Both the position numbers and the translations under genes were made by a program. The notes under the pieces are model-generated. The model made no database searches and was not told the DNA's origin. It saw only the letters and a program-made list of their open reading frames with translations. Below, in pieces: positions 60,081 to 64,000 of a DNA stretch of 64,000 nucleotides. Source of the stretch: Nitrospirota bacterium (GTDB lineage Bacteria; Nitrospirota; Nitrospiria; Nitrospirales; Nitrospiraceae); contig SCVN01000015.1 in NCBI GenBank assembly GCA_004296885.1, forward strand, positions 1 to 64,000, read 5' to 3'. Every line of letters begins with the position of its first letter. Positions within the stretch are counted from its first letter, which is position 1.

Positions 60081-60240
60081 CCGTCCCGCCGCGTCTCGCG
60101 TTAAGAAAGAAGGCAAGAAGTCCTACCCGGACCAGATCTGGCCGACCGACGCGGCCGTCCCTGCGCCTCCCAAGAAAAAGGGTCAGACCCCGAAGACCCC
60201 GGATGTGTCTGTCCTGCGCCGGCTGCCGAATGTTGCCTGA
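60061..60240 (+). pseudogene. coding-like remnant after the outer-membrane channel gene
   Basis: The frame from 60061 to the TGA at 60238-60240 is open and reads a Lys/Pro-rich segment with KKEGKKSYPDQIWPTD and PKKKGQTPKTPDVSVLRRL. It begins right after an in-frame stop at 60058 and has no start codon or ribosome site of its own. It could be a frameshifted C-terminal tail of the channel protein or a gene remnant. It may also be chance in high-GC DNA. Confidence 0.3.
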
Positions 60241-60329: not shown

Positions 60330-60560
60330 ATGAAAACAATCCAAATGACCCTTGATGACGACTTGGTCAGCTCGGTTGACAGGGCGGTTAGACGACTGAA
60401 GACGAGTCGCTCTGCCTTCACAAGGAATGCCTTGCGCTCAGAGCTGGAGCGGCTCCGCGTGCAGGAGCTTGAGCGGAAACACAGGGAAGGATATATCAAG
60501 AGGCCTCCGAAGAAAGGTGAATTCGACGCCTGGGAGCGTGAGCAGGTCTGGGCCGACTGA
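60330..60560 (+). CDS. MazE-like ribbon-helix-helix antitoxin
   Basis: 76 residues. MKTIQMTLDDDLVSSVDRAVRRLKTSRSAFTRNALRSEL is a ribbon-helix-helix DNA-binding fold; the acidic/Trp-containing tail (EFDAWEREQVWAD) would wrap the toxin. GAGG lies 7 nt before the ATG. The TGA overlaps the toxin ATG by one base, the usual arrangement for tight coupling. A TATAAG hexamer near 60278 may be the -10 element. Confidence 0.85.
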   Translation: MKTIQMTLDDDLVSSVDRAVRRLKTSRSAFTRNALRSELERLRVQELERKHREGYIKRPPKKGEFDAWEREQVWAD

Positions 60561-60871
60561 TGCGCCGCGGCGAAGTACGGTGGTACAAATTCTCCCTTCC
60601 GGATAAGCGCCGACCTGTTGTCATCTTGACACGGGATTCCGCGCTGGATTTCCTTGGGGAAGTGACCGTCGCGCCCGTGACCAGCACTGTTCGAGACATA
60701 CCCTCTGAGATCGCTCTCGGAGAAGAAGACGGCATGCCTAGGGCCTGCGCCGTGAATCTGGATCACATTCAGACCGTGTCCAAAGGAAAGATCGGGGCCC
60801 TTATCACGACGTTGAGCACCGACCGGATGGCCCAGGTGCGCCAAGCCCTTCGTTTTGCGCTAGCGCTGTAG
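60560..60871 (+). CDS. MazF/PemK-type endoribonuclease toxin
   Basis: 103 residues with the MazF start MRRGEVRWYKFSLPDKRRPVVILTRDSAL, the VTVAPVTSTVRDIPSEIAL strand and the C-terminal AVNLDHIQTVSKGKIGALITTLS. Family members cut RNA at short motifs when freed from antitoxin. All core strands are present, so it looks intact. It follows the antitoxin with a one-base overlap and precedes an MqsA-like gene by 4 bp. Confidence 0.88.
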   Translation: MRRGEVRWYKFSLPDKRRPVVILTRDSALDFLGEVTVAPVTSTVRDIPSEIALGEEDGMPRACAVNLDHIQTVSKGKIGALITTLSTDRMAQVRQALRFALAL

Positions 60872-61409: not shown

Positions 61410-61794
61410 GCAAGTGAGCGCGCTGGTATCACCAGGGCGCCAATAGATACGTTGTCGCTGACCTCCGCCCCCGCTCAGTAAAAACATCGCGGACGGAAGC
61501 GACTACGTCACCTTGCTCTAATTCTTACAAGTTGCTGGGGACCTAGGCGGGAATCCCGCAGGACCGGCTCCGGGCCGACAGGCCGGACCGGTCCGCAGGG
61601 GTTCGGGGGCGCAGCCCTCCTTCACTTGTTACTAATGGTCAAAGTAGCACATGTAACTGCATATTCTCGTTATTGCTGTTGCTAGCATTGACAAGGCAAG
61701 CAGCCACTTCTAGTCTAGGTGGAGCTGGCCATGCAGTTTTGTATATTTTGCATGGTTGGGAGCTGGCATTTCACCCTCCTAGCCGGAGTTTGCC
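61410..61794. other. intergenic region with direct-repeat copy B and a composition shift
   Basis: 385 bp without a gene. The direct repeat occupies 61525-61620. After it the sequence is clearly more AT-rich. A TTGACA hexamer (61689-61694) and a TATATT hexamer (61741-61746) are present but are badly spaced as one promoter. Confidence 0.5.
61525..61620. repeat. ~95-bp direct repeat, copy B
   Basis: TTACAAGT, GGCGGGAATCCCGCAGGACC, a GGCCGACAGGCCGGACCGGTC core and GGGGTTCGGGGGCGCAGCCC match copy A at 53741-53832 in the same orientation. The two bracket the RND and MazEF-like genes. Confidence 0.8.
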
Positions 61795-64000
61795 ATGGAG
61801 CATACGAAAGTTGTCACACCAAGCGAGCTGGAAGACTTTGCTGACCAACGAGATAGCGAAGCGGTGATACCGGAGCTCGTTGCTCATCTGGTAAATCTTT
61901 CTGTGCCCGACTTGTCACTTCGTCGAATCCCATATGGAGATGCAATCGGATTGCCAGGCCTTGATGGCCTAGTTTCAACGGAGGGCGGCTTTCGCGAATT
62001 TGTTCCTAAACAAACAAGTTACTGGGAAATCGGTCGTGGCGCCAATGCTCAGGGAAAAGCGACGGACGACTATACGAAGCGCACCCAAAGCACGCCTCAA
62101 GCAGAACGAGCGAGGGCAACATTTGTTTTCGTAACACCAAGGAGTAGGGATTGGGATCAACCAGCCCAAGCCGCATGGATCGACAAGCGAAAGGGTGACG
62201 GCTGGAAAGAAATTAAGGTTATTGACGGAGTGCAGCTGTGTGAGTGGTTACGGGAATTCCCAGCTTTAGGCAAATGGTTGCTTCAGCGTATTGGACTAGT
62301 CAAAGCTCCTACAGGGTTCCAAACTCCCGCAGAGCACTGGTCAAATCTTGCGCAGATGGTTGGACCAGCCGATCCTCCGTTGCCGCCAAAGGTCTTCCTC
62401 GTAGGACGAGAAACTGCTTGCCAGCAGCTTGAGCGCCTATTCCGTCATGAAGCTCAGGAATTGATCCTTGCTATAGAGAGTGAACACGATGCAGAGGACT
62501 TTGTAGCCGCATTCCTGGAGTCACTGGATGAAGCCACGCGTCGTGGATATAGCAATCGGTGCATATTCATTTCCGATCCTAACGCTTGGCATACCTTTGC
62601 GAATTTGCGCTTCTCGCATGTCCTAGTAGCTAGTCCTAGGCTTGACCTAGCTGATACAAATGAACAGCTGCATCTTGCGGCTCGCACACGTGGTCATGCG
62701 ATCATCTTTCCGATTTCTGGTGCCTGGTCTCATGGGGCTGAACAGCTTGTTCCAATTAGGAGCCCTTCTCACAGTCAGCTTGAAAAAACTCTCCTGGATA
62801 GCGGCTTTTCGCGGGAGCGGGCCGCTGAACTGGCCAGCGCCGGAGCACAGAGCCTAGCAGCACTGAAACGGTTCCTTCGCGGGTTGGGACAACTGCCGCC
62901 TTATGCAACGTGGGAAAACGCACGCCTCTTGGCCCAAGCGTCTCTAGTAGGCAAATGGAAAGGCAACAGTGAGGCGGACAAAAGAGCCCTGGAGATTCTC
63001 GTGGGAAAATCCTATGGGGAGTGGATCGAGGCGGCCCGAGCTGAAACATTGCGCGCGGACACTCCCCTTATCCAGAGAAATGAAGCATGGAAAGTGATCT
63101 CCCGTGGCGAGGCATGGGCCGCTCTCGGACCACGGATTAGCGATGAGGATCTAGATCGTTTTCAAAAGATGGCGCTTCAGATATTAGGCGAGAAAGATCC
63201 ACAGTTCGAGCTAGAAAAGGAGGAACGATATGCCGCGTCTATTCATGGAAAGACGCTCACACACTCGCGTTCCATTCGAGAAGGGGTAGCTGAGTCGCTC
63301 GCCCTGCTAGGCGCAAAGGGAAATGCTTTATCAAGCACTTCGGACAGCAAGGCCGAAGGAACTGCAAGAATTGTGGTAAGGAGGTTGCTGGACCGCGCGG
63401 ACTGGATAACCTGGGCAAGTCTCAATAATGAAATGCCATTGCTTGCCGAGGCTGCTCCTGATGAATTTCTTAACTCTGTCGAAGAAGCAGTTGAAGATTT
63501 AGCAGCTAGCCCTTTTATTGATGTGTTCCGACAGGAAGGCAGTGGTGGGGTTGGAGGCTGGAACTACATTACTGGAATTCTGTGGGCCTTAGAGACCCTT
63601 GCGTGGCATCCGAATTATTTAGGGCGTGTAACCATTTTACTAGGCGACCTAGCCGCTATTGATCCAGGCGGAAGTTGGGCCAATCGCCCTCTCAATTCGT
63701 TGGTAGATATCTTTCTTCCCTGGATATCCCATAGCCTTGCAGATTTGCCCACGCGAAGAACTGCTCTGGAGTCACTGCTGCGAGAACATCCAGGCGTTGC
63801 ATGGAAGGTACTGCTTGGCCTCTTGCCTAGTTCACATGGAGTAACATCCGGCACACGCAAGCCAGTTTGGCGATCATTTATCACGCCCGGATGGAAGGAA
63901 ACGGTGACAGTAGATCAATATTGGGAACAAGTTCGGACCTATGCTGAGATGTGCACCCAAGTTGCCGCGGGCCAACCGAACAAGCTCGTCGAACTCATTG
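61795..64000 (+). CDS. large protein with possible nuclease-like N terminus and degenerate STAND-like region, 3' end outside window
   Basis: Open for 735 codons to the window end from ATG 61795, with CGGAG 6 nt upstream. Residues 1-165 carry IPYGDAIGLPGLDGLV (Asp57) and SYWEIGRGANAQGKATDDYTKRT (Glu78), reminiscent of a PD-(D/E)xK fold (inference). Residues about 198-270 read VFLVGRETACQQLERLF...LILAIESEHDAEDFVAAF: the layout of a STAND NTPase after its GRE motif, but the P-loop GxGKT is replaced by non-matching residues. The remainder is helical with no clear repeat. GC is visibly lower than the rest of the window, suggesting transfer. I do not recognise a named family; a role in defence is plausible from architecture and neighbours only. 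Confidence 0.7.
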   Translation, partial: MEHTKVVTPSELEDFADQRDSEAVIPELVAHLVNLSVPDLSLRRIPYGDAIGLPGLDGLVSTEGGFREFVPKQTSYWEIGRGANAQGKATDDYTKRTQSTPQAERARATFVFVTPRSRDWDQPAQAAWIDKRKGDGWKEIKVIDGVQLCEWLREFPALGKWLLQRIGLVKAPTGFQTPAEHWSNLAQMVGPADPPLPPKVFLVGRETACQQLERLFRHEAQELILAIESEHDAEDFVAAFLESLDEATRRGYSNRCIFISDPNAWHTFANLRFSHVLVASPRLDLADTNEQLHLAARTRGHAIIFPISGAWSHGAEQLVPIRSPSHSQLEKTLLDSGFSRERAAELASAGAQSLAALKRFLRGLGQLPPYATWENARLLAQASLVGKWKGNSEADKRALEILVGKSYGEWIEAARAETLRADTPLIQRNEAWKVISRGEAWAALGPRISDEDLDRFQKMALQILGEKDPQFELEKEERYAASIHGKTLTHSRSIREGVAESLALLGAKGNALSSTSDSKAEGTARIVVRRLLDRADWITWASLNNEMPLLAEAAPDEFLNSVEEAVEDLAASPFIDVFRQEGSGGVGGWNYITGILWALETLAWHPNYLGRVTILLGDLAAIDPGGSWANRPLNSLVDIFLPWISHSLADLPTRRTALESLLREHPGVAWKVLLGLLPSSHGVTSGTRKPVWRSFITPGWKETVTVDQYWEQVRTYAEMCTQVAAGQPNKLVELI

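Follow-up and report, generated by a model that had tools for sequence, protein, structure and literature searches.

A gene that begins near the end of the stretch of Nitrospirota DNA analysed here (64,000 nucleotides, hereafter the window) encodes a protein of 1,267 residues homologous over its full length to PD-λ-4 A, part of a defence system recovered in E. coli by functional selection for phage resistance (Vassallo et al. 2022, PMC9519451; the membership of PD-λ-4 in that selection set is also given in PMC10952713). The gene appears to represent a sister family of PD-λ-4 A with an inactive STAND domain, and an anti-phage function is likely. The explanation we favour, and consider probable, is that this one gene encodes an anti-phage (counter-invader) sensor-effector laid out like PD-λ-4 A and Avs proteins, built on an ATP-independent STAND-like scaffold and carrying an N-terminal effector with an endonuclease fold. 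In such a protein, the helical superhelix and the winged helix would recognise an invader molecule, and the STAND-like domain, devoid of motifs for ATP binding or hydrolysis, would serve as a hinge or a scaffold for assembly, independently of ATP. The effector would be the N-terminal restriction-endonuclease-fold domain, most likely cleaving DNA by means of D57, E78 and K88, the last being a displaced lysine.

The gene, its locus and its acquisition

The reading frame starts with an ATG at 61795 and stays open up to the window edge, which leaves 735 residues inside the window. Extension downstream, as proposed with the original prediction, gave the complete gene: in the whole assembly (genome G000, contig C15) it continues for 1,598 bases beyond the window edge, to a stop at 65598, with no internal stop. 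The gene and the elements upstream of it are:

61795..64000, forward strand: window part of the PD-λ-4-like protein gene (735 of 1,267 codons; the end, at contig position 65598, lies beyond the window)
61540-61625: palindromic element, rich in GC, on the 5' side of the gene; two further genomic copies
60330-60871: RHH and PemK/MazF-like toxin-antitoxin pair, between the outer-membrane-factor gene and the studied gene

On the 5' side of the studied gene come, in order, genes for an RHH antitoxin-like protein, a PemK/MazF-like toxin and an MqsA-like HTH protein, the last with a Pfam match under the cut-off; on the other side, about 210 bp past the gene end, the opposite strand carries a tRNA-Leu gene. 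The further copies of the palindromic element are found at C15:53760-53830 (86%) and C23:334830-334902 (82%), and its features are those of a small repeat of the MITE or REP type. The GC content of the gene is 0.51, versus 0.63 for the surrounding region. The original prediction, made from the window alone, had described a long gene, intact to the window edge, low in GC, located after a repeat and adjoining a toxin-antitoxin set; all of these features proved real. The immediate neighbours of this copy include no MoxR, vWA or BREX gene, and sequence searches found no restriction-modification (R-M)-like gene in the 64-kb window.

The gene is horizontally acquired. Homologues are present in 3 of 61 close relatives (counting this genome itself), in 10 of 296 genomes sampled from the phylum, and in none of three congeners. 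DNA similarity is limited to the gene itself in two genomes of the same family, whose copies are 74-76% identical, and in one Nitrospira MAG. In one congener (G001), similarity to the window ends right after the outer-membrane-factor gene at 60085, just before the toxin-antitoxin pair. The import that had been proposed is thus supported, since the flanks are unlike those of gene-carrying relatives and the flank diverges in a congener. A search for an empty site found that congener contigs stop near the tRNA and that the upstream flank goes elsewhere in G001. Direct repeats of the tRNA end (att sites) were sought by the tRNA-Leu gene, and no copy of the tRNA 3' end occurs at the far end of the studied gene.

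Neighbouring genes differ from homologue to homologue, so that a fixed partner is not indicated. The upstream HTH gene was considered as a constant partner and set aside, as it is absent from that place in the nearest relatives. These nearest relatives of the window copy are located on chromosomal contigs and have no conserved partner.

Domain architecture and homology to PD-λ-4 A

Searches of Pfam, NCBIfam, PADLOC and PDB sequences gave no significant match to the studied protein, a match to TRI4_N being noise (E 0.04-0.2). AlphaFold2 models were obtained for residues 1-480 (47 homologues, pLDDT 88.3) and 376-1267 (62 homologues, pLDDT 90.4), and delimit four domains, all on the forward strand:

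61795..62298: restriction-endonuclease-like domain, residues 1-168, from the AlphaFold2 model, structural matches, conservation and profile alignment to PD-λ-4 A
62311..62892: inactive STAND/AAA+-like domain, residues 173-366, with no Walker A and no clear Walker B
62920..63135: winged-helix domain, residues 376-447, at the beginning of the core common to all architectures
63136..64000, remainder to 65598: HEAT/ARM-like all-helical superhelix, residues about 448-1267, putative sensor

With the model of residues 1-480, the top Foldseek match was Avs4 bound to a phage portal (PDB 8dgf; E 1.9e-5, prob 1.00), and the third was Apaf-1. VIA-align matched the N-terminal part to R.BspD6I (Z 9.0, 140 residues aligned) and MspJI (Z 8.3, 137 residues, within 8-168), and residues 173-366 to AAA+ proteins (Z 8-9); Z values near 8 are modest, and homology to PD-λ-4 A is the stronger argument. 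Within the STAND/AAA+-like domain, R205 is near-invariant and R359 invariant. A kinship of the superhelix with importin or PP2A was rejected, its matches (Z at most 8.6) reflecting a common helical-repeat arrangement. Structure prediction had been named beforehand as an analysis that could overturn the original view of the protein, namely a nuclease-like N-terminal end followed by a degenerate STAND-like core; it returned both folds, the former at 1-168 and the latter at 173-366.

Profile comparison with hhalign aligned residues 5-459 with PD-λ-4 A 4-508 (prob 96.4, E 1e-9), and the core, 376-1267, over 776 columns (residues 383-1265 versus 426-1276; prob 98.6, E 8.7e-16), on the basis of a PD-λ-4 A family alignment built within this analysis; the match rests partly on the helical-repeat region, and reversed and column-shuffled controls were clean (prob <1). 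The two proteins are colinear over almost their full length (1,283 residues for PD-λ-4 A, 1,267 here) and share the same order of endonuclease domain, STAND, winged helix and helical part. They differ at the functional motifs: sampled PD-λ-4 relatives retain GxxGxGK[ST], the Walker B Asp and QxK wherever these regions are covered, whereas the studied protein has neither the Walker motifs nor QxK. In the alignment, GLSGVGKT of PD-λ-4 A corresponds to ESEHDAED, its Walker B to HVLVASPRL, its catalytic Asp to D57, and its FQAK to WEIG, with Gln facing E78 and Lys facing G80. Against the PADLOC models, those of PD-Lambda-4_A among them, the window part of the protein matched no family at E up to 1, and an E. 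coli relative matched none at 0.01.

This E. coli relative (26% identity) belongs to an ssrA-integrase island and is divergent from adjoining PD-λ-4 A and B genes (2,530 and 544 bits), with AbiL also beside. A phmmer search of all ORFs of the class-A loci (class A being the architecture of the studied gene) and of the window found a PD-λ-4 B homologue only at the E. coli locus, in the company of PD-λ-4 A. The E. coli relative is matched in 204 of 5,426 E. coli genomes, and in the matches listed IS3 elements are inserted in it. The gene beside PD-λ-4 is intact in L093 (6004-9750), and interrupted by IS3 in the E. coli matches listed (L123, 10004-16272).

The motifs kept and lost are a property of the whole family. 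Across 53 full-length class-A sequences, at about 25-76% identity, D57, G58, E78, K88 and A89 are invariant and W77 nearly so, while residue 80, the canonical position of the catalytic lysine, is occupied by Gly in 52 of them and by Ser in the remaining one. Walker A is missing at the P-loop position in all 53. The Walker B region is eroded, its Asp being kept in 30 of the 53, so that the absence of Walker A is the main argument for a loss of ATP binding. As this pattern holds across such a range of identities, the missing Walker A and the LDG and WEIG motifs are not due to chance. The original prediction had singled out these same traits, LDG and WEIG on the one hand and, on the other, VFLVGRE followed by a P-loop position with no GxGKT, and both descriptions stand.

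Additional relatives are concordant (seven rows, two of which are one locus fetched twice); among them, W77 is Val in one gene, and Ser occurs once at residue 80. The replacement of Trp77 by Val, before Glu78, is seen in a 76%-identical relative (L157, 5990-9796). The studied protein lacks the GxxxxGK[ST] signature of active STAND NTPases and is an inactive STAND (iSTAND) in the general sense, that is, an AAA+/STAND fold without Walker A and with an eroded Walker B. At the PD-(D/E)xK site, D57 and E78 are invariant, the lysine at +2 is replaced by Gly, and an invariant lysine, K88, is found elsewhere in the sequence. K88 is predicted to lie in the helix following E78 and is a candidate for a displaced catalytic lysine.

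A modular family and its genomic neighbourhood

One scan of 84,980 species genomes detected at least 492 relatives, and the 80 retained belong to Pseudomonadota, Nitrospirota, Omnitrophota, Verrucomicrobiota, Gemmatimonadota, Bacillota, Chloroflexota, Planctomycetota, Cyanobacteriota, other phyla and archaea; phyla are intermixed in the core tree. The constant part is a core of about 890 residues made of the winged helix and the helical superhelix (residues 375-1267), and its N-terminal partner varies:

Architecture A (studied gene): endonuclease-like domain, P-loop-like domain and core
Architecture A': as A, with an XRE-type HTH in front
Architecture B: another endonuclease-like module (NPFSTGGGG...TDDL...QxK), a nuclease by motif, with no room for a P-loop domain
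Architecture C: HEPN-like by motif only, fused in L083 (RNFRNYIH) or just upstream in L069 and L086 (QRNEHYH)
Architecture D: separate HetE-N gene just upstream, by Pfam match in L009 and similar by eye in L112

Architecture B has no STAND domain, and in some loci its QxK module is a separate overlapping gene. Such splits between nuclease and core are seen at L054 (3268-4230), L058 (6953-7999) and L091 (3813-4784), with the break within the winged helix; they reflect either translational coupling or a recent split. On the core tree, at least 12 module changes are needed, versus a minimum possible of 5 and a value of 30.8 with shuffled labels, which indicates that modules are clustered yet repeatedly exchanged.

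A survey of neighbourhoods, also called for at the outset, found defence genes beside some homologues. The 90 nearest neighbours of class-A genes include five type I specificity subunits, as well as restriction helicases, methylases and AAA_21/AAA_15 ATPases. Among 43 window genes taken as a control, five PADLOC families were matched, mostly generic regulators. An enrichment of defence genes near class-A genes is suggestive, the control being one stretch of one genome. ORFs resembling R-M components (HsdM, HsdS, HsdR or methylase) occur at 8 of 46 class-A loci and 6 of 32 class-B loci. Gene orders are, for instance, hsdS, studied-gene homologue and hsdR in L075; hsdS, homologue and GmrSD in L035; and SNF2 helicase, homologue and methylase in L056. 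Genes of both classes are found directly after hsdS, some of them ahead of hsdR (L025, L035, L075; L070, L080, L087). A plasmid copy lies near a Lamassu LmuB-like gene.

Several observations speak against the sensor-effector explanation: Gly80 stands in place of the canonical catalytic lysine, the window copy lies outside any R-M operon, no R-M neighbour is recognised for most homologues in the flanks examined, and PADLOC does not recognise the family. The first of these leads to an alternative that is possible, if rather doubtful: a catalytically dead endonuclease-fold domain that binds DNA or phage components, in a protein whose task, as receptor or scaffold, would be to recruit or license further components of defence, such as a neighbouring type I R-M complex. 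The near-universal loss of the canonical lysine (Gly in 52 sequences, Ser in the other) and the homologues adjoining hsdS, some ahead of hsdR, are in line with it, and inactive restriction-endonuclease domains have been proposed as nucleic-acid sensors in BREX-related systems (PMC12839542). However, the invariance of D57, E78 and K88 at about 25-76% identity suggests a retained active site, the same slot elsewhere holds QxK nuclease or HEPN-like domains, and the relatives of the window copy stand alone, with no conserved partner.

Proximity to type I genes also raises the possibility of a guard function. PrrC, encoded beside EcoprrI, is such a guard of type I restriction, and the studied protein could likewise sense inhibition of the R-M system, or a product of that system, and then trigger cell killing or arrest. 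The class-A and class-B genes that directly follow hsdS, some before hsdR, fit such a function; it is nevertheless unlikely, as most loci, that of the window included, have no R-M genes in the flanks examined. Least probable is a selfish or maintenance element that travels on plasmids, prophages and islands and plays no part in phage defence: copies do occur on plasmids (22 records, conjugative and mobilizable ones among them) and on contigs classed as viral, the window copy comes after a toxin-antitoxin set and the distribution is sparse (the 10 of 296 phylum genomes above), but the protein is a full-length homologue of the product of a functional anti-phage selection and its nearest relatives reside on chromosomal contigs without a conserved partner.

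Our preferred explanation, the ATP-independent sensor-effector, can be extended to a broader proposal that we put forward tentatively. The family may constitute a very widespread type of immune sensor, made of one protein and firing without ATP, the STAND domain being a structural fossil and the helical core a general chassis of sensing for swapped nucleases, STAND-less versions included; the catalytic lysine would have been relocated, and in type I R-M operons these proteins might provide a second line of defence.

Comparison with known defence systems

None of Pfam, NCBIfam and PADLOC includes a model of the family, which is therefore missed by current defence-gene annotation, despite comprising at least 492 loci across bacteria and archaea; a family model would label many genes now called 'hypothetical'. 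Within the open-access papers covered by our literature search, the family is undescribed and no homologue accession was found. Two published systems were considered and rejected. The Gifsy protein GiPD474 (PMC12724215) is an ATPase of ParA type, short and with a Walker A motif; nSTAND2 with its GT4/HEPN effectors (PMC8195603) is encoded by a two-gene operon, and the present family shows no conserved partner.

STAND/AAA+-like domains without Walker motifs have already been described as iSTAND, iSTAND2 and BrxB, in MoxR-vWA and BREX systems (PMC7159879, PMC8195603, PMC12839542). The original prediction that a relative with lost ATP binding would form a distinct class thus does not hold: since iSTAND is known, loss of the ATP site alone makes no new class. 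The resemblance lies in a Walker-less STAND/AAA+-like domain within predicted counter-invader proteins. However, the described cases are multi-gene systems, whereas the studied domain is part of one protein, between an endonuclease domain and a superhelix; moreover, BrxB has no C-terminal helical bundle, whereas the studied protein retains the lid helices and the winged helix.

Avs4/AVAST (PDB 8dgf), the best Foldseek match of residues 1-480, is arranged overall in the same way, with an effector, a STAND and a C-terminal helical part. It has no sequence match to the studied protein, the likeness being known from the predicted fold. Avs proteins are ATP-dependent STANDs (as summarised in PMC12724215). 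In the present family the STAND layout is kept, but none of the full-length members examined has Walker A, and in some relatives the putative sensing core persists although the STAND domain is gone. STAND immune proteins, from bacterial Avs to animal and plant NLRs and Apaf-1, are understood as ATP-driven switches, and the family is a natural case for testing the role of ATP in such switches.
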